A stretch of 26,332 bases of DNA from a virus: positions 1 through 26,332 of the IMG/VR virus record IMGVR_UViG_3300042905_005950. One strand, 5' to 3'. The notes below the pieces were generated by a model. It searched no databases and was not told where the DNA came from. It saw only the letters and a list, made by a program, of their open reading frames with translations. The position numbers and the translations under genes were made by a program. Numbering within the stretch: position 1 is the stretch's first letter; the number at the start of each line of letters is the position of its first letter. Below, in pieces: positions 3,902 to 24,600 of this stretch.

Positions 3902-4153
3902 ATGTTCCGATTGTTCATCGACATTCCAATCTCCGCAATCAACACGGAGCATGCTGTTGAACAGGCACAGGCTCTTGTCAACAAGATGATTCTTGGTACT
4001 GATATGCAGCAGCACTTCAAGTCTGTAAATATCGAACAAATCAATTATCGTCTTGGTCATGATGAGGATCGACAGAAGTCGAATTATCTCATGATCGATG
4101 ATAAGGGTCATTGTTCAACGAAGAAGATAAAGGTGACAATCGCCCCAGAATAG
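3902..4153 (+). CDS. Hypothetical protein whose stop codon lies in tRNA-Gln
   Basis: An 83-residue protein, not recognised, starting 1 base after the previous stop with GAGGGA upstream. It is mixed alpha/beta, with no membrane segment. Its TAG stop (4151-4153) is also the first three bases of the tRNA-Gln acceptor stem, so RNase P cleavage of a shared transcript would remove the stop from the mRNA. It is the last gene of the small-gene operon. Confidence 0.75.
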   Translation: MFRLFIDIPISAINTEHAVEQAQALVNKMILGTDMQQHFKSVNIEQINYRLGHDEDRQKSNYLMIDDKGHCSTKKIKVTIAPE

Positions 4154-4221
4154 GGATTGGTGTAACGGTAGCACCTTTGACTCTGGATCAAAGTGTCTAG
4201 GTTCGAATCCTAGATCCCTAG
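4151..4221 (+). tRNA. tRNA-Gln (anticodon CUG)
   Basis: Full cloverleaf: acceptor TAGGGAT (4151-4157) with ATCCCTA (4214-4220), D-stem GTGT/GCAC, anticodon stem TTTGA/TCAAA with loop CTCTGGA (anticodon CTG), T-stem CTAGG/CCTAG with loop TTCGAAT, discriminator G. The U1-A72 pair is typical of tRNA-Gln. CCA is not encoded. The next promoter's -35 starts at the base after the discriminator. Confidence 0.93.
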
Positions 4222-4249
4222 TTGACTTCGGTACATCTTGTGGTACAAT
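4222..4249 (+). promoter_or_regulatory. Sigma70-type promoter upstream of tRNA-Ile
   Basis: TTGACT (4222-4227), 16-bp spacer ending CTTGTGG, TACAAT (4244-4249) with TGG extension. The expected start site (about 4256) is only 3 bases before the tRNA at 4259. The promoter would drive tRNA, the gene at 4334, the methyltransferase and the gene at 5102. Confidence 0.75.
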
Positions 4250-4258
4250 AGTAGTGTT

Positions 4259-4331
4259 GGGACGGGGGGGTGCTGGATGCCCAGAGCGACTTATAATCGC
4301 TTGGCAGTTGGTTCGAATCCAATCCGTCCTA
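4259..4331 (+). tRNA. tRNA with UAU anticodon, predicted tRNA-Ile (AUA)
   Basis: Acceptor GGGACGG (4259-4265) with CCGTCCT (4324-4330, one G-T pair), D-stem GGGT/GCCC, anticodon stem AGCGA/TCGCT with loop CTTATAA (anticodon TAT), T-stem GTTGG/CCAAT, T-loop TTCGAAT, discriminator A. Odd points: position 8 is G instead of the near-universal U, a run of seven G spans the acceptor/D junction, and there are two bases where position 26 is expected. AUA is rare in many hosts and common in AT-rich phages. Confidence 0.78.
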
Positions 4332-4333
4332 TT

Positions 4334-6300: not shown

Positions 6301-6471
6301 TCAAGAAGAATGCTTGTTGTTCATACACGGACATGGGCTCTGTTTTATGTTCATGGTAGATCCATCTCTGAATTGAGGTTGATCTTTTTTTTCTATTTCC
6401 TCTTCCATGACTTTTCCATGGATGAGATGAGAAAATATTTCTTCTGGCATATAATTTGAAAGATATGTCAT
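6301..6471 (-). CDS. 56-residue hypothetical protein coupled to the Cys-rich gene
   Basis: On the minus strand ATG (6471-6469) overlaps the TGA stop (6470-6468) of the 1058-residue protein as ATGA, with AGGA about 8 bases upstream, so translation is probably coupled. The protein has an amphipathic acidic helix (MPEEIFSHLIHGKVMEEEIEKK) and ends CPCMNNKHSS. No family recognised. A role tied to its large partner (assembly or stability) is a guess from coupling. Confidence 0.62.
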   Translation of the reverse strand: MTYLSNYMPEEIFSHLIHGKVMEEEIEKKDQPQFRDGSTMNIKQSPCPCMNNKHSS

Positions 6472-9400
6472 GGGGCTGTTCCTGATGATTCCCCGTCTTG
6501 GGGACAATTTATTCCGAAGTTTTCTGGTTTACTGCAAGCGCATGTTTGAGGCAAGTTACAACATGCGTTAGGATTTGAAAGATTGTCTGGAATATAAAGG
6601 AATCCTATTCCACTCGAAGCTTGTCCGTCATTGACTAATTGCAGACATTCAAAATAATCTTTTATTCCAAGACATTCTTCTGCGATTCCTTCTCCAGAAC
6701 ATTTCCAGCAGCAGACTTTCGGGTTGAAGTCTACTTGTGTTCCTACGAACTTACCGTCATATAGCGGAGGATATCCGGGTCCGGGATATTTCGGACAAGA
6801 TGCGGCATTATGGCTTGGGTCTGTCGGCGGTTCTTTATCGGCACTTGCCCCGTTTCTTCTTCCCCCACAACAATAATCTGTTCCTGAGAATAGACGACCG
6901 TACCAAGGACTATTGATCGGTGCTCCTTCATTACCATAATCAACTATTCTATTTGAGAAACAAAATAGCCCTTCACATTGTTTTCCAGGATATGGAATTC
7001 CTAGATTATTTTGTGCCAACAATGCTTCACATACACCAAAATGAGAAAGCCTATTTGAATACACAGCAGGTATTGCATTTTCTATGGCAATTGGTATCGA
7101 TAGATTTCTGCATGTGTGTGGACAGAATTCATCATAATTTCCTGTAGTCTTGTTTACAGTATAAAGATAAGAATTTACTACACCATTACAAGTGCTGTAT
7201 TCCTCTGGGTATGCACCAGATGCTTGCACTATTTTATGTCTATAATATATGAAGCGTATTCCACTGCAATTTGCATTGAATGCTATTCCTCTGCAATTAG
7301 CTGGACCGCCTCCTTGTTCTGGGTGTGTGCTGCACCAAGATCCATCAGCACACTCTATGGCAAGACAAGATCCAACATCAGTGTCACACCCAACAACAGG
7401 AAACTGAACTAATTCTCCAGATTCAGGATCAATATAACCGCAACTTATGTCCGGACATCCAGCACCATCAAATTCAAAAGATTTTTGTGGATAACCGAAA
7501 ACACCAGCAAGACACCCACCCGGAGCATTTCCAATATTACTGTATCTTCTGGGAAGATCAGGAATCCTGTATTCGAGTTCAGGAGCCTCTTCCCCGGGCT
7601 GTGGGGGTCTCACGAACCCGCCACACACATAGTCCCATCCTCCGGGTCTTGCATGCATGTAAAGCCATTGGGACTCTCTCCATGTCTTGAACTGAAGCCA
7701 TTCGTCTGTGGGTGTTTGACCAGCAAGTGGTTCAGCAGGATAACTTCCTCCCCAAGGATCTTTTATCAAATCAGCAGGGAGTTGTAAATTCACCAGTGTT
7801 TTGTCTGGGTTATTGGTAAAATCTCTTTCAGATCTGACTATAGATGGAGTGAAAGAAATAGTATTCAGTCTTGCTTTTTTGGGGTTCAACCATGCAGGAC
7901 CTGTGACTCTTGTACCATTGACCATGACATTTATTCCACCATCTTCTTCTGGTATCCAAAGTTTCTTTCTTACAGGTCCAAGATATTTTTCAATAGGATT
8001 CGATAGAAGATGCGGTTTAAATCCTGAACAACTCACACAGGTTGCAGTGGTGCATTGTTCGCCTTGAATAAAATCTCCACCACAGAGACCACAAGTCAAT
8101 CCTGTTGTTTCAAAACAGTAAGAACTTAGAGTATCGCCACATGGACCGATTGATGCATCCCAGAATGAAGGAATACAGCATGAACCATAACCCTCAGTGA
8201 TTCCAGTTATCTTACCATAGAATTGTTGAGTATAACTCAGTCCCTGTAAGATCCCAATCTCATTCAGTGCTTCTTGTCTCCAATCACCGACATCGAAATA
8301 TCCACCCTCGGATAATTTCAGGAGAATTTCTTGCTTTGGTGTTTCTCTATTTGCCAGAGATTCAATTAGATTTTGATAATCTGTTTCCGTTAAGTAATTG
8401 TTCTTAATAGCATCTTTCAAATCAAAATCAAACAAAGGTACACCGGAGCAAGCATATATCCAGAATCTAGGACCAACCAAAGATGTATTGGCACCGATTA
8501 CATTCCCCGCATTATCAGTGATCCAGCCACCCAACACACCATTTTCATCATCGTGTTGTGGATTTTCTGGACAGCGAGCTATTTCATACCAATGTTCGCA
8601 GTGGACCACACAGAGAAGATGGTCATATAAAGTACCATTGTCAAAATTGGCAATTTCTTTTGGACCCTCATCTGGGGTGTTTTCATATGTGTAATACGGA
8701 CTGGCAACTCTTCTGCCTTCATCATAACACATGATGTCAAGAAGCCATCTGTAGTATGGATTCTTTTCCATCTGTCGTTTTCTATATCTGGATAGTCTCT
8801 TGCTTTCATATGAAGTGTTGGTTCCGGTCTTAGTATCTCTAAGCGGATCTTCCGGACCACCACCCACGCATTGACATCCCGCCCATGCAATATTATCAGA
8901 TCCCTGATCGATCATGCATGGGAAATCCATCGCCTCATATGGCTGTCCCGGAGCGGGATCGGTGTCATCTATATTTGCAAGTGGAGGAGTATTATCTAAA
9001 CATCTTTGTCCAATATAATTACCATAATTATCACCGGCAGAAGTTTTGTTGATGCTTGTAGGATCACAGAAAGAACATAATCTTGGTCTGCCGTTGTTCG
9101 GCCATTTTTTAGCCAATTTTCCCGCTGCCTCATAATCAAATTTAAAATATTGCCCGACATAATTGTAATAGATTTTGACATTCGGGTGGGCTTGTTTTCC
9201 TATATTGCAACATCTTTTCACACCAAGGGGAACTTCACTGCACAGTGGAAGAGAGTTAGGATCGTCTGGATCGCATCCCGGCGGTCTAGCACAAATAACA
9301 CCAAGAGGATTATCTGGATCTTCTGGAACATCCCAATCAATACAACCGGGTGGGGGATTATCTGGACAGCATGGGGCTTGTGTATTAGGGCAGCACTCCA

Positions 9401-9644
9401 TGCCATTTCCAGCAAATGCTGGTCTTTCATATTCAAAGATAAGTCCTTGATTTTTAGAGTGGCAACACCCAGCACTCGGTGTTATAACATGTCCTTGTAT
9501 ACACCCTTTGCATTCAAGTTTATCGCATTGACAACATTTGCATTTTGTGATATCTAGTGTGGGGTCGGCTTGTATCTGGCGAGCCCCTTTTCCAAACATT
9601 TTGTCGAATATTTTATTGGTCGGTTGATTGTAAAAATTTCGCAT
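6468..9644 (-). CDS. Giant cysteine-rich protein, probable virion component
   Basis: A 1058-residue protein starting at the ATG 9644-9642, with AGGA 6 bases upstream. I count about 67 cysteines (roughly 6%), many as CC or CxC pairs: KCKCCQC near residue 35, ECC and PCC around 83-93, SCC, CGLCGGDF, QCTTATCVSC, YCCGG, VCCWKCSGEG, ECLGIKDYFEC, ACCNLPQTCAC. The rest is rich in Pro, Gly, Asn and aromatic residues. There is no signal peptide or membrane segment, so it is cytoplasmic or in the virion. The hub protein at 19465 has similar Cys-rich linkers, which suggests both are structural. Zinc binding or disulphides formed after lysis are possible. I recognise no named family. Confidence 0.82.
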   Translation of the reverse strand: MRNFYNQPTNKIFDKMFGKGARQIQADPTLDITKCKCCQCDKLECKGCIQGHVITPSAGCCHSKNQGLIFEYERPAFAGNGMECCPNTQAPCCPDNPPPGCIDWDVPEDPDNPLGVICARPPGCDPDDPNSLPLCSEVPLGVKRCCNIGKQAHPNVKIYYNYVGQYFKFDYEAAGKLAKKWPNNGRPRLCSFCDPTSINKTSAGDNYGNYIGQRCLDNTPPLANIDDTDPAPGQPYEAMDFPCMIDQGSDNIAWAGCQCVGGGPEDPLRDTKTGTNTSYESKRLSRYRKRQMEKNPYYRWLLDIMCYDEGRRVASPYYTYENTPDEGPKEIANFDNGTLYDHLLCVVHCEHWYEIARCPENPQHDDENGVLGGWITDNAGNVIGANTSLVGPRFWIYACSGVPLFDFDLKDAIKNNYLTETDYQNLIESLANRETPKQEILLKLSEGGYFDVGDWRQEALNEIGILQGLSYTQQFYGKITGITEGYGSCCIPSFWDASIGPCGDTLSSYCFETTGLTCGLCGGDFIQGEQCTTATCVSCSGFKPHLLSNPIEKYLGPVRKKLWIPEEDGGINVMVNGTRVTGPAWLNPKKARLNTISFTPSIVRSERDFTNNPDKTLVNLQLPADLIKDPWGGSYPAEPLAGQTPTDEWLQFKTWRESQWLYMHARPGGWDYVCGGFVRPPQPGEEAPELEYRIPDLPRRYSNIGNAPGGCLAGVFGYPQKSFEFDGAGCPDISCGYIDPESGELVQFPVVGCDTDVGSCLAIECADGSWCSTHPEQGGGPANCRGIAFNANCSGIRFIYYRHKIVQASGAYPEEYSTCNGVVNSYLYTVNKTTGNYDEFCPHTCRNLSIPIAIENAIPAVYSNRLSHFGVCEALLAQNNLGIPYPGKQCEGLFCFSNRIVDYGNEGAPINSPWYGRLFSGTDYCCGGRRNGASADKEPPTDPSHNAASCPKYPGPGYPPLYDGKFVGTQVDFNPKVCCWKCSGEGIAEECLGIKDYFECLQLVNDGQASSGIGFLYIPDNLSNPNACCNLPQTCACSKPENFGINCPQDGESSGTAP

Positions 9645-9812: not shown

Positions 9813-9885
9813 GCGGGCGTAACTCAGCTGGTAGAGTAATAGTTTTCCAAACTATATGTCGAGGGTTCGAATCCCTTCGCCCGCT
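9813..9885 (+). tRNA. tRNA-Gly (anticodon UCC)
   Basis: Acceptor GCGGGCG (9813-9819) with CGCCCGC (9878-9884), D-stem ACTC/GAGT with loop AGCTGGTA, anticodon stem ATAGT/ACTAT with loop TTTCCAA (anticodon TCC), T-stem GAGGG/CCCTT, T-loop TTCGAAT, discriminator T. CCA not encoded. It is co-transcribed with the tRNA-like gene 18 bases upstream. Confidence 0.94.
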
Positions 9886-9888
9886 TTC

Positions 9889-9895
9889 CTAAATA
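9889..9895 (+). promoter_or_regulatory. Late-promoter-like box CTAAATA
   Basis: CTAAATA directly after tRNA-Gly and about 50 bases before the ATG at 9946, matching the boxes at 1326 and 11051. It would allow late transcription of the membrane protein gene without the tRNAs. Confidence 0.5.
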
Positions 9896-9945
9896 GTATG
9901 TCTAGAGTTGAAATGAAAGTTAAACTTTTACCATGGAGGTACACT

Positions 9946-10200
9946 ATGTTTGGACTTGGTTACAGAACTACATCGTATGCATTTGCAATTGCTGCGGGTT
10001 TTCTTGTTCTTGCTGGTGAGGAATATCACAAGTTTGCTTTTGCAAGCGTTGTGTCTGCTCTTGTCGTTGCATATCTGAAGATTAACGAAGCAGAAACGGA
10101 TCGTCGCAACGATTGGAACAATCGTCGCGTAGATGATCTTGATGATATGATGCATCGTCAGATTTCAGAGCTTCAAGAGAAGAAGGCTGATCGCGAATAA
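9946..10200 (+). CDS. Small two-TM membrane protein with coiled-coil tail
   Basis: An 84-residue protein. ATG 9946 is chosen because a perfect GGAGGT (9935-9940) lies 5 bases upstream; longer frames run into tRNA-Gly. Two hydrophobic helices (about 10-25, YAFAIAAGFLVLAGEE; about 30-46, FAFASVVSALVVAYLKI) are followed by a highly charged helical tail (DRRNDWNNRRVDDLDD...ISELQEKKADRE). The size and layout are compatible with a holin-like or other membrane accessory protein, but nothing specific identifies it and no lysin gene is next to it. Confidence 0.78.
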   Translation: MFGLGYRTTSYAFAIAAGFLVLAGEEYHKFAFASVVSALVVAYLKINEAETDRRNDWNNRRVDDLDDMMHRQISELQEKKADRE

Positions 10201-10206
10201 TTAAAC

Positions 10207-10222
10207 GCCGGGGAAACCCGGC
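10207..10222 (+). other. GAAA-capped hairpin between gene and tRNA-Glu
   Basis: GCCGGG (10207-10212) pairs perfectly with CCCGGC (10217-10222) around a GAAA tetraloop. No U-run follows. It lies 6 bases after a stop codon and 3 bases before the tRNA, so it may protect the mRNA 3' end after tRNA processing. Confidence 0.6.
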
Positions 10223-10225
10223 AAC

Positions 10226-10299
10226 GCTCCCATAGATTAACCGGCTAAATCCCCGCCCTTTCAAGGCGGTGACTCGGGGTTCGAGTCCCCGTGGGAGTA
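10226..10299 (+). tRNA. tRNA-Glu (anticodon UUC)
   Basis: Acceptor GCTCCCA (10226-10232) with TGGGAGT (10292-10298, one G-T pair), D-stem GATT/AATC, anticodon stem CCGCC/GGCGG with loop CTTTCAA (anticodon TTC), T-stem CGGGG/CCCCG with loop TTCGAGT, discriminator A. The anticodon stem matches bacterial tRNA-Glu. CCA not encoded. Confidence 0.94.
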
Positions 10300-10308
10300 T
10301 TTTATATT

Positions 10309-10968
10309 ATGCTAAACATAAACATACCACATTTTTATTGTTATCTGCGAAAAGAACAAATGTATCAGCACAAAACTCACATAGGTGAGTTTGATAAAGT
10401 TTTGGTTTTTGGTGCTCAATCTTGTTCTGGCAGGGCATTGACATTTCATGTATTGACAGATTATGGTCTTGTGAGAAGCAGGGTCCCTATCCACATGCTT
10501 TGCCACAAGACAGATTCTTCAGTTTTCCCTTTGGATTATTTGCAGCTTTGGGATTGTTTTGATGAAAAAGTAACTGTTACTGAATTTGACGCATTGACAG
10601 ATACTAGGTCCAAAATCGTATTGAAAGATGGTTCTGAACACTGGGGAAAGTACATGATGACTTTCGACTGGTTTAGAAATTCTTATTCGGACGAACCTTC
10701 GCAATATAAATGCTTGCACATGTTCAAGTTGGATAACGGGAATTTTACACTACAACCGAATAATAGAATTAAATGGAAGTGTATGTCATTTGTTACAAAG
10801 CCATTTCCTGAAAAACCAGATTATTTGGTTGATGATAAGGCGTGGATTTGTGAAGATCAGAGTGATCGTTGGATTATAAATTCACACGACAGTTCATACT
10901 ATTATACGATAGATAAAGTTGATTTCGAAAAGAAAAACGAACAACATGGAGGTTCGGGGTCCTCATGA
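10309..10968 (+). CDS. Conserved phage protein of unknown function
   Basis: A protein of 219 residues from ATG 10309 (MLNINIPHFYCYLRKEQMYQ); an alternative start is ATG 10360 (MYQHKTH). Neither has a good Shine-Dalgarno, and the first lies 9 bases after tRNA-Glu, so the mRNA may begin at the tRNA-processing site. The N-terminal IPHFYCYLRKEQMY and FDKVLVFGAQSCSGRALTFHVLTDYGLVRSRVPIH resemble an unnamed protein of T4-like cyanophages that I recall but cannot assign a role. It ends in a Gly/Ser-rich tail after KKNEQHGG. No membrane segment. Flanked by tRNA-Glu and tRNA-Asn on the same strand. Confidence 0.8.
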   Translation: MLNINIPHFYCYLRKEQMYQHKTHIGEFDKVLVFGAQSCSGRALTFHVLTDYGLVRSRVPIHMLCHKTDSSVFPLDYLQLWDCFDEKVTVTEFDALTDTRSKIVLKDGSEHWGKYMMTFDWFRNSYSDEPSQYKCLHMFKLDNGNFTLQPNNRIKWKCMSFVTKPFPEKPDYLVDDKAWICEDQSDRWIINSHDSSYYYTIDKVDFEKKNEQHGGSGSS

Positions 10969-10977
10969 GAGTATTTT

Positions 10978-11050
10978 TCCTTCATAGCTCAGTTGGTAGA
11001 GCGGCGAGCTGTTAACTCGCAAGTCGTTGGTTCAAGTCCAACTGAAGGAG
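10978..11050 (+). tRNA. tRNA-Asn (anticodon GUU)
   Basis: Acceptor TCCTTCA (10978-10984) with TGAAGGA (11043-11049), D-stem GCTC/GAGC with loop AGTTGGTA, anticodon stem GCGAG/CTCGC with loop CTGTTAA (anticodon GTT), T-stem GTTGG/CCAAC with loop TTCAAGT, discriminator G. Textbook cloverleaf close to bacterial tRNA-Asn. CCA not encoded. Confidence 0.96.
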
Positions 11051-11057
11051 TTAAATA
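11051..11057 (+). promoter_or_regulatory. Late-promoter-like box TTAAATA
   Basis: TTAAATA followed by ATA, immediately after tRNA-Asn and 22 bases before the FkbM gene, like the CTAAATA box after tRNA-Gly. A start 6-7 bases downstream would give a short leader of about 16 bases. Confidence 0.45.
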
Positions 11058-15404: not shown

Positions 15405-15929
15405 TCAGGCGTTAAAACTTCTCCAAATCGGCAGGAATGCCGTTTCCATGGCCACCTTTTCGAAGGTGGTCATGCCTTTTACGGTGACTCTGCCTCCTGC
15501 TCCGCCCATATCGCGTCCCCCACCTCCGGGATTTGCACTCATTGCCCCGGGGGTGGGAGGACATGGAGCACCCATGGTGCCCCTTTCCCTGAATTTTTCT
15601 TGACTGATTGTCAATTTATTGGTCGAAGCCACCATCTGATTCGGGTTTTTGTCTACGGTGACTCTTTCGGGTTGACCGATATTGACATTTGGTGAGTCCC
15701 CAGCCATAAAAAGCGTGGGTTGAGTAACATTGAAGCTTCCTCCCTTATAAAATCTGGGTATCTTGGGAGTTTCGGGTGTCAATTGAACAAAGTCAAGATT
15801 AGCGATTGACGAAATTCGGGGAAACTTACCCTTTTCGACTCCAGGTTCCTTTCCGAAGAACACATTCTTGGAAAGCATGGAACTTTTTGTCTTATTTTTC
15901 CAGTCGAATTTCGTATTTTTTGCTTTCAT
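15405..15929 (-). CDS. Small tail protein with tape-measure-like C-terminal motif
   Basis: A 174-residue protein starting at ATG 15929-15927; this ATG overlaps the stop of the -1 frame upstream (ATGA), and a longer in-frame version from 16037 would have to read through that region without a start signal. Basic N-terminus (MKAKNTKFDWKNKTK). Residues about 60-95 (FYKGGSFNVTQPTLFMAGDSPNVNIGQPERVTVDKN) resemble the conserved end motif of tape-measure proteins (GG.v..PTL...GE.....ERV.V). Residues about 115-145 are Pro/Gly-rich. It is placed after tail-tube-like and chaperone-like genes, where a tape measure would be, but is far too short for one. Function unassigned. Confidence 0.72.
   Translation of the reverse strand: MKAKNTKFDWKNKTKSSMLSKNVFFGKEPGVEKGKFPRISSIANLDFVQLTPETPKIPRFYKGGSFNVTQPTLFMAGDSPNVNIGQPERVTVDKNPNQMVASTNKLTISQEKFRERGTMGAPCPPTPGAMSANPGGGGRDMGGAGGRVTVKGMTTFEKVAMETAFLPIWRSFNA
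15447..15480 (+). terminator. gp32 terminator inside the convergent gene
   Basis: CATGGCCACCTT (15447-15458) pairs with AAGGTGGTCATG (15463-15474) through 12 pairs including one G-T, around a TTCG tetraloop, followed by CCTTTT. It lies 43 bases past the gp32 stop, inside the coding end of the minus-strand gene. A smaller hairpin CGGCA/TGCCG (15429-15442) precedes it. Confidence 0.85.
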
Positions 15930-16108
15930 CTGTTGCTTTCTCTTTCTTTTGCCTGTTCTTCCAAATGCTGCCTCAGTTGTGCCACATAAACTTCTCTCTC
16001 CCACGGTATCATGGCCTCTACATCTGACAGAGACCATTTATGAATGTGTAGTAGCAAGAAGTTTAATCTATAAAACTCTCCAATACTTATGTGGCTGAGG
16101 CAAATGCG
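15926..16108 (-). CDS. -1 frame extension of the gp26-like protein
   Basis: Open for 60 codons in the -1 frame relative to the gp26-like gene. It is entered at the T TTT TTC heptamer (16114-16108), runs past the zero-frame stop (16089-16087) and ends at a TGA (15928-15926) that overlaps the next ATG. Predicted residues include GEFYRLNFLLLHIHKWSLSD, then VEAMIPWEREVYVAQLRQHL and a charged EEQAKERESNR end. This has the look of a conserved helical tail-assembly domain (small proteins with M-P-W/F-E-R-x-V/I-Y-V motifs follow gp26 in T4-like phages as I recall). There is no ATG before codon 33 and no Shine-Dalgarno/start combination, so a gp26-extension fusion by frameshifting is the simplest reading. 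Confidence 0.75.
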   Translation of the reverse strand, partial: RICLSHISIGEFYRLNFLLLHIHKWSLSDVEAMIPWEREVYVAQLRQHLEEQAKERESNR

Positions 16109-16114
16109 AAAAAA
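15969..16114 (-). promoter_or_regulatory. Programmed -1 frameshift signal: slippery site plus long-range stem
   Basis: Minus strand: heptamer T TTT TTC (16114-16108) in the X XXY YYZ register of the zero frame (AGT TTT TTC), a 5-base spacer GCATT, then a 5' stem arm TGCCTCAG + CCACATAA (16102-16087). The 3' arm is TTATGTGG (15989-15982), a 5-base bulge, and CTGAGGCA (15976-15969). All 16 pairs are Watson-Crick. The loop of about 97 bases could hold more structure. Spacer length is within the usual 5-9 bases. Confidence 0.75.
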
Positions 16115-16803
16115 CTTTCTATTCCCATGAGAGTTACTGATCTCTCCATCCCATCTTTTGTGGTGTAATTGATGGTCTTTTTCATTCTTGGGATAGAATT
16201 AACGAATTTCTTAAATTCATCCAGTTGCTTGGATGTCATCAGATCATAAAAACTCAAAAGTTCTTCGTTTGAGATATCTGTTTTGGGGAAAACATTACCT
16301 GAAGTCTGAAGTTCAAGGAAACAATTCTTGAAAATAGATCGAATTTCATCCCCTTCGGGATCTTCATCCTGCAACAAATATTCAAAGGTTGGTTCTTGCA
16401 ACAAGAGAAGCATATCATCAGACAGCTTTATCTTATTTGACCTGTGTTTGGGTTTATCAAGGTCAAAATTCTCAAGATTTAAAGTCATATCAATCGCTTC
16501 TTTTGTTTCCGGGCATATCATCGTAAAAGATGCCTCTTCTCCGATTGATTTTCCACGAAGATAAAGAAAAGCCTTTTCTACATCGGCTATAGGCATTTTT
16601 TCCGGATTCGGGATGTCTTCAAAGCAATTTTCAAGAATCTGGGCTATGGCTTTTGCCATTTCCATACCAGAATTCGATTTTTGTGCCAGTAGAAGGATTT
16701 TTTCTTCCTTCACGGTCATGGGTCTGAATTTGTGCTTTTTCCCACTTATCGGTAATTGTACTTCATATGACGGAAAACTCTTTTTCAACAATTCTGTAAT
16801 CAT
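16087..16803 (-). CDS. 26: gp26-like protein (PF12322 type), candidate tail-assembly chaperone
   Basis: A 238-residue protein. I prefer ATG 16803 because AAAGGA lies 6 bases before it; ATG 16809 directly abuts that site. The opening KKSFPSYEVQLPISGKKHKFRPMTVKEEKILLLAQKS is the signature of T4-like gp26 (P.Y.l.LP.sGk...frPf.vkEEK.Ll.A). It continues with IADVEKAFLYLRGKSIGE, ICPETKEAIDMTLNLENF and DLMTSKQLDEFKKFVNSIPRM. T4 gp26 is needed for baseplate hub assembly. The gene follows the tail-tube-like gene by 6 bases, and its last codons carry a slippery heptamer, so it probably makes both a short form and a frameshifted long form, as lambda gpG/gpGT do. Confidence 0.88.
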   Translation of the reverse strand: MITELLKKSFPSYEVQLPISGKKHKFRPMTVKEEKILLLAQKSNSGMEMAKAIAQILENCFEDIPNPEKMPIADVEKAFLYLRGKSIGEEASFTMICPETKEAIDMTLNLENFDLDKPKHRSNKIKLSDDMLLLLQEPTFEYLLQDEDPEGDEIRSIFKNCFLELQTSGNVFPKTDISNEELLSFYDLMTSKQLDEFKKFVNSIPRMKKTINYTTKDGMERSVTLMGIESFFAFASAT

Positions 16804-16815
16804 TTTCATCCTTTA

Positions 16816-17379
16816 TTATAACTGTCTGTACATCCCTCCTACAAGGAAAGATAAAGTCATGGTTTGCGGTTCACTCTTATCGGCTGCGAATCTGAATGGT
16901 AGTATCTTTTCCAAGTAACAACCACCATAATTGTAAGACCCTACAACATTACCTTTGCGGTCGTATGCCTGTACCCTTATGTTTGTGCCAAAATTATTTC
17001 TTTTCCAAGAAAAAGAATTTACTGATGTAGCAGAGGCATCTTCGAATAGTCTGCCTCTATTTAATTGGTTGAAATTTGTGTTTGTATAATTTTTTAAGAA
17101 ATTGAAAAAATCGTTTGATTCTACTTCAGGTACTATAACTTGTGCGATTAATTGTTCTTCGAATTTCAAACCAACAGGCATTCTGAAGAATTGATTTCCT
17201 AACCAATAATTACAATTGATAAATTCATATTTTGGTCCGGGTAAATCCAGTCCAACGACTCTTTCCGGTGGAATTTTATATTGAGTATTTCCACCTATTT
17301 CAAATACTATAGAATATCTGGAAGCGTCTTGGTATCCACCTTTTCCTATTTCTGTGATGAGTGATTGAATATTGCTCAT
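16816..17379 (-). CDS. Tail-tube-fold protein (gp19/gp54-like)
   Basis: A 187-residue protein starting at ATG 17379-17377, which overlaps the gp4 stop (ATGA); a longer frame to 17421 is possible but lies inside gp4. The pattern is that of the T4 tail-tube family (gp19, gp54): an early strand SRYSIVFEIGG, a central VGLDLPGPKYEFINCNYWLGNQFFRMPVGLKFEEQLIAQVIV, a middle helix SNDFFNFLKNY, then IRVQAYDRKGNVVGSYNYGGCYLEKILPFRFA and a final strand TMTLSFLVGGMY. It is either the main tube subunit or the baseplate tube initiator; I cannot separate these by eye. The following gp26-like frameshift gene favours the tube subunit, because chaperone genes normally follow the tube gene. Confidence 0.78.
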   Translation of the reverse strand: MSNIQSLITEIGKGGYQDASRYSIVFEIGGNTQYKIPPERVVGLDLPGPKYEFINCNYWLGNQFFRMPVGLKFEEQLIAQVIVPEVESNDFFNFLKNYTNTNFNQLNRGRLFEDASATSVNSFSWKRNNFGTNIRVQAYDRKGNVVGSYNYGGCYLEKILPFRFAADKSEPQTMTLSFLVGGMYRQL

Positions 17380-17804
17380 GTAATGTGAAGATCCTCTTCG
17401 GTGAGAATCTTGAAATGCCACCCTTGTTCTTCACATAATTTAGTAGCAGATTCCCATTTAGTAGTATTTATCATGTAGGTGGCCATCTCCATGGCATAAC
17501 TCTTTTTTCGCCTATTTTCTGGCGGGGCGGTCTGCTTCTTCGGTTTGATCTCGACAACATAGGTCTTGACCTGACCATGCTCTATCGCCTCGAATAGAAA
17601 ATCTGGGTAGTACATACAAGGTCTTTTCTTTACCGGACAATAGTATGGAACGCTCAATTCCTCGCTTGCCCACCGCACTATAGACTGGTTCTCATCCAGA
17701 TATTTACAGAATTTTCGCTCCCAAAGCGATCTACATATTATCTTATTCGGGTCGCCTACATATTTTGATGGGTTTTTTGGATAAAAACGAGTCTTATAAG
17801 GCAT
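17376..17804 (-). CDS. 4: gp4-like head completion protein, TnsA/PD-(D/E)xK fold
   Basis: A 142-residue protein closely following T4 gp4 (150 residues) from end to end: FYPKNPSKYVGDPNKIICRSLWERKF (T4: VPKNISKYRGDPKKITYRSNWEKFF), then VRWASEELSVPYYCP, and YYPDFLFEAIEHG...YVVEIKPKKQTAPP (T4: RRYFMDIWMKDSSG...FIEIKPKKETQPP). E29, D68, E85 and K87 form a plausible PD-(D/E)xK nuclease site like TnsA. In T4 the protein completes filled heads before tail joining. Its ATG is only 9 bases from the ATG of the divergent gp48-like gene, and no Shine-Dalgarno is evident. The stop overlaps the tail-tube-like start. Confidence 0.92.
   Translation of the reverse strand: MPYKTRFYPKNPSKYVGDPNKIICRSLWERKFCKYLDENQSIVRWASEELSVPYYCPVKKRPCMYYPDFLFEAIEHGQVKTYVVEIKPKKQTAPPENRRKKSYAMEMATYMINTTKWESATKLCEEQGWHFKILTEEDLHIT
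17465..17472 (-). promoter_or_regulatory. Late-promoter-like box GATAAATA (minus strand)
   Basis: Reads GATAAATA on the minus strand from 17472 to 17465, about 85 bases before the tail-tube-like ATG and inside the gp4 gene. One mismatch to TATAAATA. It could boost the tube gene above gp4, but the box also encodes gp4 residues, so chance is possible. Confidence 0.35.
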
Positions 17805-18587: not shown

Positions 18588-19468
18588 AATACTTTAGCTT
18601 AGTACCTTCACTCGATTACCAGTTCCCTGACGGAAAATTTTTGTCTACCAAAAATATTTTTATTCGTCCAAATATAGCGATTAGCGAAGAATTCGATCCA
18701 AATTCAAATAAGTTTATGATCGAAGATGCAAAAAGTCCAGATAATGTAGCAAAAGAATTCTATTCAGACCCTAATCTGTTCTGGACTCTTCTGCTCACAA
18801 ATGACATAATAGATTACTATAAGGACTGGCCACTGTCATATTCTGGCTGGGAAGAGGAACAGTACGAAGTCAATTCAGAATTTATAATTTACAGCAAATA
18901 TATCATGGATATAGAGGTTGGAGATTTGGTCTGTAAATATCTTCCGGGAGAGGATGTGAATTTTGACAGGACGAATTTTGGAGTTGTGACAGCATTCGAT
19001 TCTTTCTACAGGACATTTGATGTCAATATAGCAGAAGGCCAACTCAAGAAAGACGATGAAATAATAGTATTAAGAAAAAATGGACTTCGTTACGATGTTA
19101 TAAACACACCGAATGGTGAAGAATATCAGACAATTTTGAAAATAGCTCAAAAATTGGAGTCGGTGTTTGTTTTTGAAAAGAAAGATGATTTGAGTGGTTA
19201 TTACGGAGGGGTTTCTCCATATTATTCCATAAATGGTGAAATAATAGATGATACAGTCACTGATCTTTCATTGTACACCGATACCATTCTTTGGAAGTAT
19301 ATAAACGATTCTTTGCCGAACAACTACAAAATTATCACCTTCAAGCAAAATAAAGAGAATGAGTGGACTTTCAAAAGAAATCTGACAGTGATTCCAAAAA
19401 CAAAAGTCAATCAGGTTCTAACGGCAACTATATCATCGATAGAAAATCAGAAGGCAGTGTTTGAATGA
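18584..19468 (+). CDS. 53: gp53-like baseplate wedge protein
   Basis: A 294-residue protein whose first 120 residues match the gp53 family: a LDYQFPDGKFLSTKNIFIRPN opening, then DAKSPDNVAKEFYSDPNLFWTLLLTNDIIDYYKDWPLS, the classic Y.dp.lfW.il.aNni.dp..dWPls motif (a LysM-like fold). The family name in Pfam is phage base plate wedge protein 53. In T4, gp53 clamps neighbouring wedges together around the hub. T4 gp53 is 196 residues; here an extra C-terminal region from about 170 on has two beta-rich blocks. It overlaps both neighbours by ATGA, so the three genes are probably translationally coupled. Confidence 0.92.
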   Translation: MKYFSLVPSLDYQFPDGKFLSTKNIFIRPNIAISEEFDPNSNKFMIEDAKSPDNVAKEFYSDPNLFWTLLLTNDIIDYYKDWPLSYSGWEEEQYEVNSEFIIYSKYIMDIEVGDLVCKYLPGEDVNFDRTNFGVVTAFDSFYRTFDVNIAEGQLKKDDEIIVLRKNGLRYDVINTPNGEEYQTILKIAQKLESVFVFEKKDDLSGYYGGVSPYYSINGEIIDDTVTDLSLYTDTILWKYINDSLPNNYKIITFKQNKENEWTFKRNLTVIPKTKVNQVLTATISSIENQKAVFE

Positions 19469-22400
19469 GAGTAAAACCTTTTCGTATAGTAAAAACTGAG
19501 CTTGTCAATCTCAACACCGGTGACATCAAAAAATTGAGTCAATATGGGGCTGGGGATTCAGATACAGATTTGGTATCGTTAACAATCAAGGAAAGTATGT
19601 TTTCTCCTTCTCTTGAGGGAGAAGCTGTCATTCGAGACTATTCTACCACAATTGAAGAGTTAAACATTTCGATAGGAAATTATGACACTCTTCGTGTTAC
19701 TCTTGAGCAGGTTGGTGAAAATGAATATGGAATGAGCGAATCAAAGATCCTAGTTGTAGATCTTTCGATTTATGCTTTCTCTCAAGAAACAAGTGAAGCC
19801 GAGATCCAGATAGGAAAAGTGAATATTGCTCGTCTTATCAGTTTGAAATTGGCTTCCAAAGAACATTATTTGCTAAATTACAATTTCTTTGATTTCATGG
19901 ATGATGATAAGGTGATGAAGATTTCTTATGCACCGAGCGAAGAAGAACAGCAAAGAAGTGGTGGAGCAAGCGGTGACAATAAAGGAATGGTTCAATACCT
20001 GATCGATAGAATGGGTGCATTGACAACGAGCCAAGGCGGTTCGGCTGGAGTAAAATCTCTTCCGCTCATAGCAGACAATACGGCAAACTGGGTGTGGTTG
20101 AAAAAGAGTCATAATTTTTACCCTTGGGGAAAGTTCATAAAGCCACCGAGACTGTCTCAGATGATGCAGTTGTTGGCAGAAAATGCCGTTGACGGCACAA
20201 ATAACAATGCTGTCAATTTTTTCTTTTGGCAAAATCTTGAAAACTGGAATTTTAGATCAGTCGAGAGTATAATCACAGAATATAAAACTCAAAAGAAAGA
20301 AGAAATCAAAACATATTACATCTCTCCCGTGATGAACAGAGGAGACTCGATCAGAAGCTTGGAGTCTGGTTCAGATGATGAAATTCATGTCTCTTCTTAT
20401 GAAGAGACAGATTTCTTTGATTTGCTGAGATCATATGCATTCGGTTCACTGTATACATTCGTGGAGCCAAAATATGGAGAAGATCCATATGCCAGATATC
20501 TTGATGTTCAGGGTGGACACATTTATCAAGATATTTACTATGATTATTTCGAAGATGGAACAAGATGGCAAAAGATTGAAGGTGAGCCAAAAGTTTATGC
20601 TCAAATGGGAAGTGAACCGAATAAATTTATTCAGAATGTCGGACAGAATCTTATAGCCGATACCAAATATGGTTACTTCTCCCCCAACTTTTTCAATAAG
20701 GAAAAGAAGGTTGCTTGGGAGTATAAGGGATACGAATATTCCAACAGGGATGAAGAGGAATTGTGGCAAACTCAGTTTGACATCACCGACATGCGGGGAG
20801 AAGAACTGAAGATAATTCAGGAAAAGATCAAAAAGCCCCTGAAAAAGAAAAAAGAAGAATACGCCAAGAAAAAGAACCTCAAAGAAAAGTGGAAAGTTTA
20901 TAAATGCTCTATCTGTTGTGCGGGCGATGTGGACTCTAAAGGTGTTGTTATAGAAGGTGCATCCGGTGCATCTGGAGCAGTGTCGGGATTCAGTGGTTTC
21001 TCCGATCCAAGATTTGAAAAGTCTTTCAATCTAAGAAACGACGGGGCTCTTTCAAATTATGAAATAGTGGCAGCAGGGTCCTTCACGGATACCATAAACT
21101 TCGATGCAGCAAAAGTCGGTGTCGGATTTACAGGATTCGGTTATAGTGCAGACGGGACCACCTTGACCGATGAACAAGGAAATCCGATTGTTCAGACCTT
21201 CCAAAATGAATGGACTCGAAGCGGAATGACTTTGAGCTATAATTTGAATGAATCCCCATACAATCTAAGCATGGGTGAGTTCTTCAATCTTGAACAGAAT
21301 CCTGACAATTTCGTGACTTATCGTTTTGATCTGGAAATCAAGAGACATGAGAAATTGAAGCAGATATTGGAAACCAATATCGCTACTCGAAACATAAGAA
21401 AGCAAAAGTATCAATCGGCTTTGGCTGGATATACCGCAGCGTATGTTGACCGAAATGATACATGCTTGACTGCTGGCTGCACTGGTTATTGCTTGTGCCC
21501 GACTGAATATCCTGAAACAGTAAAAGCGAAAGTTGATTTCGTGGTCGGTGCTCACGATGCTCTGAGTGGACACGAAGAGCAAATCATCGCACAGATCGAT
21601 CCGATGATTGAGAAACTAAAGGCACTCAAGGCAGAGTTCCTTTCTTTGTATAGCACCTATTGGTCCAGAAAGGCTTTCTTCTTCTCGCGAGACATTGATT
21701 TCTCGTTCTTGAAATCAGGAAATAATTTATTCAATATTAAGAGTATTACGCGCAGAAAAATAGCGACAAGCAAATATGCACCATTTGCCGTCAGAAAATC
21801 AATAGGTGGAACTTCAGGATATCCGTTGAAGATTAATGAGCCTTATGGAGGATGCGGTGGAACAGAATGGTATCCTTATGATATTCAAAGAGATGTAAAT
21901 AGTACTAGTGAAGATTCAGTACCGATAACATCTCCCTATGCTCCTGGTATAGATGTCACTAAACTTGGAGATACTGGAGCTTATCCATATTATGACAGAT
22001 ATTATAGTAGAACAATAAAAAAATCTGATTTCTGGGAATCATTCGAATCACCATTTGCAAATTTTCCATACTCAGAAGCACAGAATGAAAAAGCAAAGGG
22101 ACCGATTTGGTATCGAAACTGGCTTGTCAATTATGAAATAACTTTGATAAAACCACCATGTCTCAACCGCAAACCGCCATGTTTTGAAGGTGATTGTTCT
22201 TGTGATGAAATAGTGCTTCCCATGAGAATGCATTTCGAAACATTTGCAAACGGAGAAACTGCGGACATTCTAACCATGTCCGCAAAAATAAAAGATTATG
22301 CATTTACTCAACTGTCTAAAAATTGTGATGGATGTAGAATAAGAATAACTTCCGCATTCCCTTCATCTGATGTGAAATTATACCATCCGTGGGCAGCAGA

Positions 22401-24600
22401 TGAATTGGGCAAGACTTTCAGTTATGTTGATTACAAAAAATCTTCAAGTTTCTTTAACGATGTTCTTGATTTTAGGGGGACAACTGGTTATCCTCCTCAT
22501 ATGCTTTTAGAAGGCGAAGAAAGTTATATCAGAGTAGAATTCAAGACCCCCATCGGGCAGGAAACACTAAAAGACTTTCCGGAAGGATTTAATGACACTT
22601 ATGGAAGTGAATATTTCCTCCCATACATTGTTCTTGCCACTGCTGGTCCTTTCGGTAGTCAATCTGCAAGAACCAATATTTCGGTAATCGGTCAAGATCC
22701 ATATGGCTTCGATCTTGCAGTTAAGAAAATTAAAAATAGAGACGATTTTGCTGGAATGAACTTGATGTACACCGATGGAGAAAGACTTTTTGCTTTTAGA
22801 GACTCAGATGGAGATACAATTTATCCTGACGAAGGAGCCCCATTCAATTTTATAGAACCATTTTCTACATCATCATCTTGGCTAAAGACATCACAAAATT
22901 CCTTGTTCTATAAGCCAAAGGACGGAATTGCCGATCTTTTCGTTCCGAATGGAATTCAAGATGTTTTCATGGCATCCAGACTTGAAAGATCATTGCCAGC
23001 GAAAACTTGGTGGGATCTTTGGGTTTCCCTTCCCCCAATTGCGGTAGCAACTTTCTATAATAGATGGGATGTTCTTGGAACATCTGGTGGTTCATTGGTC
23101 CCGAATGTAGAATCAGGAATCACATATCAAGGCGTTGCGTTCTACGACAACAATTCTATTGTTGCCGAACCAGTGACATGGACAGGGGATGGATGCTCGG
23201 GTGGATGTTCGGAAGATCCGCCGTGGCCATTGTTCCTCCAGCCCGATACAGAGCAGATAATCACGGGAGCATTCCCATCAAATGTCGCAGCGACCATTGC
23301 TGAGGATATACTAGAATCATCGGCTTCGCTTGGAGATTTCGACACGGTTCTTATTCCGGGAATGTCCGGGGCATCTGGTATGTCTGGAAATCCGGCATTA
23401 ATTCTTCCCAGAGATCCATCAAACTATGTTTATAGATTCGCAGAATTCCCCCATATAGTTGGAATTGGTCCAACACAAGGAGCGTCTGGAGAAGGTGAAC
23501 TTAAGGGAATAACATCGGCTGTTGGAGGAAAAAATTACCCTGTCATATCATATCCTATCGGAACATTGATATGGGGTAAATTCTTGCCGGGTGGATCGGC
23601 GGGCGTGACCATGAGTTTCGATCTTGAAACATATGGTTTCAGTGGAGAAAAGAACTACAAAGACTACAATGTTGTTCATCGCTGGGATATGTCCAGAAAG
23701 ACCCAATATGGATTAGTCTCGTTGAGCTCAGACTCTATGCCTTCCCTTCTTTCGCTCATAGGAGGAGTCGGTGGGCAGATCGAGGAGATTCAGGAATATC
23801 AGAGATGGGTTTCAAACAAACTCATCGACTGGTTCCAGAACACCATTTTTGACAACAATTTTGCCGGTCAATTCGTAGTTCTCTCCAAACAAGGGGGCTC
23901 TTGCAAGGGCTATCCCTGCATGAATCCAGAGGGCTTCCCGGGCATTGAGGGCTGTCCGGCGAACGATCCTCTATGCAACTGTCCCTGCCAAGGAGCATCT
24001 GGAAACAAAGGCAAGCTCATGTCCAGCTATCTTATTGGAAGCACTGGAATGCCACCAGATGCCGTTCTTCGTCCAGACCTCATGGATATTGTTGACAGCC
24101 GATTCTTTGGTGTGACCTTTGCCCCGACCGGTTCTTATGGTCCAGAACCATCTTCTCTTGAGCTTGAGATTCTTGAGAAAGAACTCTCGGAATGTGAGTT
24201 AATCAAGAAAAATCTTGGAGAACAATGGTTAGGGTGTGTATGGGATAAACCAGATAGCCCGTACAATTGTAGTTGTCCAAATATCGGCAGAAGATTCCCG
24301 GATTACATGAAGTATAACAGGACATATTCAACTTTCTGGGGAACACCTCTTGCTGCGCCTCTGCTCAGAACCGCTCAGATGGCACTGTTGAATTCAAATA
24401 AGATAAGTATTACGGTTCCGGGAGATTTGGATATTAAGGCTGGCCAGATTATTAGTGTAGAAAGCCGAAATGTTCAAAACAAGAGATTCCGTGGAAAATG
24501 GCTTGTGACCACGATTAACAGATTCTTCAACCGTGCATACCATATGATGACTTTGACTCTATCCAGAGAGGGCGGTGTAGGGGAGCAAAGAAGGAATTAA
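19465..24600 (+). CDS. Giant baseplate hub protein with gp27-like ends and a Cys-rich insert
   Basis: A 1711-residue protein. The N-terminus (MRVKPFRIVKTELVN..., VSLTIKESMFSPSLEGEAVIRD, IGNYDTLRVTLEQ, residues 1-230) and the C-terminus (KISITVPGDLDIKAGQIISV, GKWLVTTINRFFNRAYHMMTLTLSREG, 1630-1705) have the pattern of gp27/gpD-type hub domains that bind the tube and the spike. T4 gp27 is 391 residues, so well over 1000 residues are inserted. The insert has Lys-rich helices (about 445-480), GASGASGAVSGFSGFS (about 497-512), Cys clusters (about 480, 667-678, 900-915, 1244-1249, 1480-1511, 1593-1607) and a further GMSGASGMSG near 1298. No gp5-type lysozyme motif is seen. It is coupled to gp53 by ATGA and followed by gp25. 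Confidence 0.85.
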   Translation: MRVKPFRIVKTELVNLNTGDIKKLSQYGAGDSDTDLVSLTIKESMFSPSLEGEAVIRDYSTTIEELNISIGNYDTLRVTLEQVGENEYGMSESKILVVDLSIYAFSQETSEAEIQIGKVNIARLISLKLASKEHYLLNYNFFDFMDDDKVMKISYAPSEEEQQRSGGASGDNKGMVQYLIDRMGALTTSQGGSAGVKSLPLIADNTANWVWLKKSHNFYPWGKFIKPPRLSQMMQLLAENAVDGTNNNAVNFFFWQNLENWNFRSVESIITEYKTQKKEEIKTYYISPVMNRGDSIRSLESGSDDEIHVSSYEETDFFDLLRSYAFGSLYTFVEPKYGEDPYARYLDVQGGHIYQDIYYDYFEDGTRWQKIEGEPKVYAQMGSEPNKFIQNVGQNLIADTKYGYFSPNFFNKEKKVAWEYKGYEYSNRDEEELWQTQFDITDMRGEELKIIQEKIKKPLKKKKEEYAKKKNLKEKWKVYKCSICCAGDVDSKGVVIEGASGASGAVSGFSGFSDPRFEKSFNLRNDGALSNYEIVAAGSFTDTINFDAAKVGVGFTGFGYSADGTTLTDEQGNPIVQTFQNEWTRSGMTLSYNLNESPYNLSMGEFFNLEQNPDNFVTYRFDLEIKRHEKLKQILETNIATRNIRKQKYQSALAGYTAAYVDRNDTCLTAGCTGYCLCPTEYPETVKAKVDFVVGAHDALSGHEEQIIAQIDPMIEKLKALKAEFLSLYSTYWSRKAFFFSRDIDFSFLKSGNNLFNIKSITRRKIATSKYAPFAVRKSIGGTSGYPLKINEPYGGCGGTEWYPYDIQRDVNSTSEDSVPITSPYAPGIDVTKLGDTGAYPYYDRYYSRTIKKSDFWESFESPFANFPYSEAQNEKAKGPIWYRNWLVNYEITLIKPPCLNRKPPCFEGDCSCDEIVLPMRMHFETFANGETADILTMSAKIKDYAFTQLSKNCDGCRIRITSAFPSSDVKLYHPWAADELGKTFSYVDYKKSSSFFNDVLDFRGTTGYPPHMLLEGEESYIRVEFKTPIGQETLKDFPEGFNDTYGSEYFLPYIVLATAGPFGSQSARTNISVIGQDPYGFDLAVKKIKNRDDFAGMNLMYTDGERLFAFRDSDGDTIYPDEGAPFNFIEPFSTSSSWLKTSQNSLFYKPKDGIADLFVPNGIQDVFMASRLERSLPAKTWWDLWVSLPPIAVATFYNRWDVLGTSGGSLVPNVESGITYQGVAFYDNNSIVAEPVTWTGDGCSGGCSEDPPWPLFLQPDTEQIITGAFPSNVAATIAEDILESSASLGDFDTVLIPGMSGASGMSGNPALILPRDPSNYVYRFAEFPHIVGIGPTQGASGEGELKGITSAVGGKNYPVISYPIGTLIWGKFLPGGSAGVTMSFDLETYGFSGEKNYKDYNVVHRWDMSRKTQYGLVSLSSDSMPSLLSLIGGVGGQIEEIQEYQRWVSNKLIDWFQNTIFDNNFAGQFVVLSKQGGSCKGYPCMNPEGFPGIEGCPANDPLCNCPCQGASGNKGKLMSSYLIGSTGMPPDAVLRPDLMDIVDSRFFGVTFAPTGSYGPEPSSLELEILEKELSECELIKKNLGEQWLGCVWDKPDSPYNCSCPNIGRRFPDYMKYNRTYSTFWGTPLAAPLLRTAQMALLNSNKISITVPGDLDIKAGQIISVESRNVQNKRFRGKWLVTTINRFFNRAYHMMTLTLSREGGVGEQRRN

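Follow-up and report, generated by a model that had tools for sequence, protein, structure and literature searches.

A predicted −1 frameshift linking gp26 and gp51 in the tail assembly chaperone gene of T4-like phages

Frameshifted chaperone genes and related cassettes

In phage lambda, a −1 slip near the 3′ end of the tail assembly chaperone (TAC) gene generates gpGT, a minor long form of gpG that carries an extra C-terminal domain (Xu et al. 2004; reviewed in PMC5009743), at a gpG:gpGT ratio of about 30:1 (PMC5009743). The gp26/gp51 locus of T4-like phages follows the same layout, but differs from lambda in its protein family (PF12322, with a short form of about 240 aa), in its slip site (T_TTT_TTN) and in its candidate stimulators, a long-range stem and an internal Shine–Dalgarno (SD) sequence; in T4, moreover, the family is tied to the baseplate hub, and gp26 and gp51 are counted among the hub assembly chaperones in a review of T4 tail assembly (PMC3004832). 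The E. coli dnaX cassette likewise combines a slippery heptamer with an upstream internal SD and a downstream stem (PMC5009743). There, however, the heptamer is A_AAA_AAG, the stem is a local hairpin and the product is shorter, whereas the gp26/gp51 arrangement is predicted to give a longer product and involves a long-range stem. Internal SD sequences stimulate −1 frameshifting both in dnaX and in IS elements (PMC5009743).

Frameshifted TAC genes are already known in kind and, according to papers that cite the original work, have been reported for T4-like phages. The earlier note on this DNA, whose author was not aware of any description for gp26 loci, has to be corrected on this point. The two-gene state of T4-type phages (one short gene and a second, long fusion gene) is credited to Vladimirov, Gautam and Davidson 2022 (Virology 566:9-15) in the PRFect paper (PMC10885494), and PMC12846349 attributes to this study the polyT slip sites in the TAC-N genes of T4-like phages; by the data presented below, the short/long pair in question would be genes 26 and 51. 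For phage Adele (Vandenendeviridae / Andersonviridae), PMC12846349 reports a −1 shift at a conserved GTTTTT at the TAC-N end, followed by an unannotated open −1 frame, much as here, but in different phage families and with no stem or SD signal described in the passages covered. The contig and the clade presented below are new members of this group. Three features may be new as well: the internal SD, the long-range stem and a 3′ stem partner that has shifted from clade to clade. None of the three was found described in the literature covered, in which Vladimirov et al. 2022 is represented through the citing papers.

Reading frames, fold and slip site of gp26/gp51

The window is a stretch of 26,332 nucleotides that covers positions 1 to 26,332 of the IMG/VR viral record IMGVR_UViG_3300042905_005950. 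On its minus strand, gp26, the putative TAC short form (T4_baseplate PF12322, phrog_150), occupies 16087-16809 and encodes 240 aa when read from the ATG at 16809; translation probably begins at the next ATG, 16803, because AAGG lies six bases upstream of it and because it agrees with relatives. The 3′ end of the gene reads AGT TTT TTC GCA TTT GCC TCA GCC ACA TAA in the zero frame. The slippery heptamer T_TTT_TTC at 16108-16114 (−), in the zero frame AGT TTT TTC, is of the X_XXY_YYZ type and lies, as the earlier note had claimed and as inspection bears out base for base from 16114 to 16108, in the correct register for a −1 slip; the zero-frame stop TAA (16087-16089, −) follows six codons past the slip site. 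From 16108 (CGC), the −1 frame runs open for 60 codons, reading RICLSHISIGEFYRLNFLLLHIHKWSLSDVEAMIPWEREVYVAQLRQHLEEQAKERESNR, to a TGA at 15928-15926 inside the ATGA at 15929-15926, likewise as described before. This extension (15926-16108, −) is the C-terminal domain of gp51 and would bring the long form to a predicted 294 aa.

The ATG in ATGA starts the next gene (15405-15929, −), which encodes 174 aa of no assigned family. Upstream of gp26, the gene at 16816-17421 (−) stands where relatives have their gp54/tail-tube-like gene, annotated in them as tail tube or tube initiator; PHROG and Pfam searches returned no match for it, and it resembles the S-SM1 'tail tube' protein weakly (E 0.012). 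No tape measure gene was identified within the window. Other features include a head-closure homologue (17376-17804, −; gp4 in relatives) with a further match to the N-terminal domain of TnsA-like endonucleases (PF08722, E 1.4e-17), a cysteine-rich protein of 1058 aa without a PHROG match (6468-9644, −), a protein of 1711 aa whose last ~70 residues, its best-scoring stretch, match the tail protein family phrog_350 (19465-24600, +), and two clusters of tRNA genes at 4151-4332 and 9813-11051 (+), with five genes in all (Gln, Ile, Gly, Glu, Asn).

Both halves of the predicted long protein belong to recognizable families. While gp26 matches PF12322 with 155 bits (cut-off 24.5) and phrog_150 with E 7e-49, residues 2-58 of the −1 peptide match phrog_634, the 'baseplate hub assembly catalyst' gp51 (E 2.6e-21), and the −1 frame, previously only called domain-like, therefore codes for a known domain rather than noise. 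The AlphaFold2 model of gp26 (pLDDT 90.7) finds its best solved matches (VIA) in 3fgx, 2ob9 and 3klu, with Z 7.5, 7.3 and 6.9 over 87-88 residues; a Z of ~7 over ~90 residues is moderate, though far above the remaining rows, the next chain having Z 2.8. The structure 2ob9 is the HK97 tail assembly chaperone (gp13), named so in the structure title, and 3fgx and 3klu (YqbN) belong to the TAC family. A search of PDB sequences with the gp26 profile returned no relatives, and the link to TACs thus rests on fold comparison; in plain Foldseek, HK97 2ob9 ranked fifth, without a significant E-value. The model thereby supports a predicted TAC fold for the short form. The gp51 extension was modelled as helices (pLDDT 84), and its structural matches to tail-assembly proteins are weak only.

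To the extent that sequences can decide the matter, comparison across T4-like phages establishes a programmed event. Loci were gathered from IMG/VR with gp26 queries, from cultured phages and, in a few cases, with a DNA pattern that includes the slip site, and in all 115 in which both gp26 and gp51 were found, gp51 lies in the −1 frame behind a T_TTT_TTN in register. Cultured members infect, among others, Synechococcus, Prochlorococcus, Pelagibacter, Methylophilales, Stenotrophomonas, Vibrio, Aeromonas, Cronobacter, Rhizobium/Agrobacterium and Pseudomonas. A set of 54 representatives, all below 70 % identity, has TTTTTTC (37), TTTTTTT (13), TTTTTTA (3) or TTTTTTG (1) as its heptamer, and the zero-frame stop follows 0-8 codons past the slip (a single codon in 37 of them). 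Without exception (54/54), the codon ahead of the slip has T as its third base (AGT, GAT, TCT, AAT, GCT or ACT), although the encoded amino acid varies between Ser, Asp, Asn, Ala and Thr, and TTT is used for the first Phe, again in 54/54; under local codon usage, the respective probabilities are 10^-14.6 and 10^-11.3, values that ignore kinship among representatives and are to be read as orders of magnitude only. Representatives with Leu instead of Phe at the second slip codon retain the T run as well. In relatives, the slip site and the −1 frame recur down to ~30 % protein identity, and the stem discussed below down to ~43 %, which rules out chance as the origin of the arrangement. An assembly error as the cause of the split frame is ruled out by its presence in more than 100 loci. 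The programmed −1 frameshift that the earlier note had proposed for this gene is thus strongly supported by comparative sequence evidence (54/54 representatives).

The same conservation bears on the possibility that gp51 is simply a separate small protein, initiated independently or by coupling at the gp26 stop, with a T run that merely codes for Phe-Phe. Databases do annotate gp51 as a gene of its own, with varied starts, and an ATG overlaps the zero-frame stop or lies close to it in some genomes (Vibrio Va3, Rhizobium P10VF). Ahead of the gp51 core, however, 23/54 representatives have no ATG, GTG or TTG at all, and a start candidate with an SD occurs in only 1/54; in the window, the first candidates past the slip are TTG 16057 and ATG 16012, both within the conserved gp51 domain, which agrees with the view of the earlier note that this frame lacks a credible start of its own. 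Mere coding for Phe-Phe also fits poorly with the conservation of individual bases (T in third position of the pre-slip codon across five amino acids, TTT in 54/54), and in T4, Proteus and Campylobacter the gp51 domain is fused to a gp26-like protein. We consider independent initiation highly unlikely. Transcriptional slippage on the T run, by which a mixed mRNA pool with altered U number would yield the long form, is a known alternative route, for example in Thermus dnaX (PMC5009743), and the homopolymeric slip site, extended to 7-8 T in some relatives (L010, L078, L101), would suit it. At most sites, the run nevertheless ends after six T and gives way to C, and TTC serves as the second Phe codon in 37/50 cases, although TTC makes up 34 % of the Phe codons in these genes; selection therefore seems to avoid longer T runs. 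As the register of T_TTT_TTN is fixed and signals that would act on the ribosome (SD spacing, downstream helix) are conserved, slippage was downgraded and appears most improbable.

Candidate RNA signals on both sides of the slip site

Downstream of the heptamer, folding and duplex tests recover the stem of the earlier note exactly: a 16-base 5′ arm, TGCCTCAGCCACATAA (16087-16102, −), begins 5 nt past the heptamer (spacer GCATT) and is complementary, apart from a 5-nt bulge, to the 3′ arm TTATGTGGC-ACAAC-TGAGGCA (15969-15989, −), which codes for VYVAQLRQ. The arms lie ~97 nt apart and form 16 pairs around the one bulge, with a 17th U-A pair possible. In the alignment, an inner helix appears in the loop (15990-16062, −), pairing 16062-16056 (ACTTCTT) with 15996-15990 (GAGAAGT). 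The 201-nt region folds with -54.7 kcal/mol (z -2.94), and the arm-to-arm duplex (-25.3) surpasses 500/500 dinucleotide shuffles and all but 4/500 synonymous-codon resamples. Such pairing had been called an unlikely coincidence, a judgement sustained by both null models and by its recurrence in relatives. Within the window's own clade (8 members, support 100/99), the stem recurs in 7/8 members, with duplexes of -22 to -26 as compared to shuffle means of -11 to -16, and with 1-9 of 500 synonymous resamples as good; the remaining member (L004) retains the outer half only. In this clade, 91.7 % of the stem cells are paired (33-50 % when slid) and 92.9 % of those of the inner helix, with one double change each. 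The stem is hence conserved here rather than proven by covariation, and a coding constraint on both arms is possible.

It is conceivable that the frameshift is real and that the stem merely results from coding sequences that overlap or are strongly conserved, without a role of its own. The 5′ arm is indeed dual-coded, the 3′ arm codes for a conserved VYVxQLRQ or PWERE motif, double changes are few in the window's clade, and in some clades among the 53 loci tested downstream pairing does not rise above the synonymous null. Against this stands the pairing beyond that null in 7/8 members of the window's clade and, family-wide, the behavior of the arm just past the heptamer, which pairs downstream beyond the synonymous null in 19/53 loci (offset +3) or 13/53 (offset +5), while control arms further down do so in 0-7. 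Sister clades covary and use another 3′ partner for a 5′ arm that begins equally far from the slip site. The evidence of covariation comes from a 27-row set that comprises 25 of the 26 rows of one tree clade (one being too short), chosen without regard to pairing, and two outside rows that do show pairing. In this set, the arm at +5..+16 pairs with +103..+114 (PWERE codons; for example CCCTCTCCCA/TGGGAGAGGG, CCCTTTCCCAC/GTGGGAAAGGG and GCTCTTTCTCAT/ATGGGAAAGAGC), and 22 double-change cells were counted as compared to 10.1±2.8 in shuffles, with 0/500 as high. RNAalifold returned no consensus structure for the 27 rows, several of which lack the helix. The compensatory changes that the earlier note had named as a check are hence found in sister clades, but hardly in the window's own clade. 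Taken together, a coding by-product seems unlikely, and the comparison supports the stem as a putative conserved signal.

On the upstream side, an SD-like stimulator candidate precedes the slip in most relatives. Family-wide, pairing with the 16S tail peaks in 8-nt windows that start 13-18 nt upstream of the heptamer, where the mean of per-locus minima is -6.4 kcal/mol as compared to -1.8 at control sites and -5.1±0.16 under the synonymous null. The signal is weak in the window's clade, with a mean of -3.9 versus -6.7 elsewhere; the window itself carries a weak GGGA (16123-16126, −; best -4.2 kcal/mol) 9-12 nt upstream of the heptamer. These patterns suggest a composite signal that would set the short:long ratio of TACs throughout the T4 superfamily, with an internal SD ~10 nt upstream of T_TTT_TTN and a long-range helix that starts a fixed 5-6 nt past the slip, the 3′ arm of which would have been moved within gp51 between clades, and with the stem largely replacing the SD in the window's clade. 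We regard this proposal as equally likely to prove right or wrong.

One gene with a frameshift or two genes without

A further line of evidence comes from gene counts. The first ~200 residues of T4 gp26 and of T4 gp51 match PF12322 (E 9e-64 and 4e-52, respectively), while the gp51 C-terminal domain is found on gp51 only; T4 gp51 therefore corresponds to the long form and T4 gp26 to the short form. Whole genomes of T4 and Proteus Pm5461 contain two PF12322 genes each, and Campylobacter CP20 has, in a phrog_150 search, one short and one zero-frame long family gene; in all three phages, the domain is fused to a gp26-like protein without a frameshift. By contrast, the frameshift phages DLP6, S-SM1, P10VF, AS-szw, Va3, Mosig, Aeh1 and pf16 each have one PF12322-family gene, as does the 76-kb contig behind locus L006 (a fragment; frameshift type). 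T4 gp26 still terminates in FF, but with the non-slippery codons TTC TTT. Beyond this pair, T4 gp26 weakly matches phrog_1140, the family of the gp28 hub distal subunit (E 9e-4), and gp28 might represent a third distant paralogue. Together with the predicted TAC fold, the one-gene versus two-gene pattern lends support to the G/GT-style chaperone pair that had been suggested for this locus.

We consider it very probable, on the basis of sequence comparison, that gp26/gp51 is a tail (baseplate-hub) assembly chaperone gene that gives two proteins from one message by −1 frameshifting. Most ribosomes would stop at the gp26 stop and release the short form of about 240 aa, while a minority would shift back at T_TTT_TTC, from TTT-TTC to TTT-TTT, and read on through the gp51 domain, giving a gp26-gp51 protein of ~294 aa. 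In the window's clade, the likely stimulator would be the long-range RNA helix that starts 5 nt past the slip, has its 3′ arm at the end of the gp51 coding sequence and holds the inner helix in its loop; in most other T4-like clades, a strong SD-like sequence ~10 nt upstream would be added. By analogy with lambda gpG/gpGT, many short and few long subunits may form a coat around the tape-measure or hub core, while the long form may recruit a tube or hub partner through its extra domain. T4 would obtain the same pair by gene duplication, with gp26 as the short and gp51 as the long form. That the long protein is made, in what ratio and with which binding partners, and that stem and SD stimulate the slip, is what we infer from these comparisons.

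Across the genomes and contigs counted, the comparison indicates a rule: there is either one gene and a frameshift, or there are two genes and none. The frameshift would also explain several annotation puzzles. In Aeh1, published as lacking gp51 (PMC3037559), gp51 lies at 2250-2459 (NC_005260, locus L121) in an unannotated −1 frame behind T_TTT_TTC, and a gp51 annotation is absent from AS-szw and Cronobacter S13 as well; elsewhere, annotated gp51 starts are scattered internal codons. In the T4-like genomes inspected, the long chaperone is thus still split or dropped by annotation. Finally, the conservation of the RNA signals opens the short:long ratio of this putative chaperone pair to direct tests.
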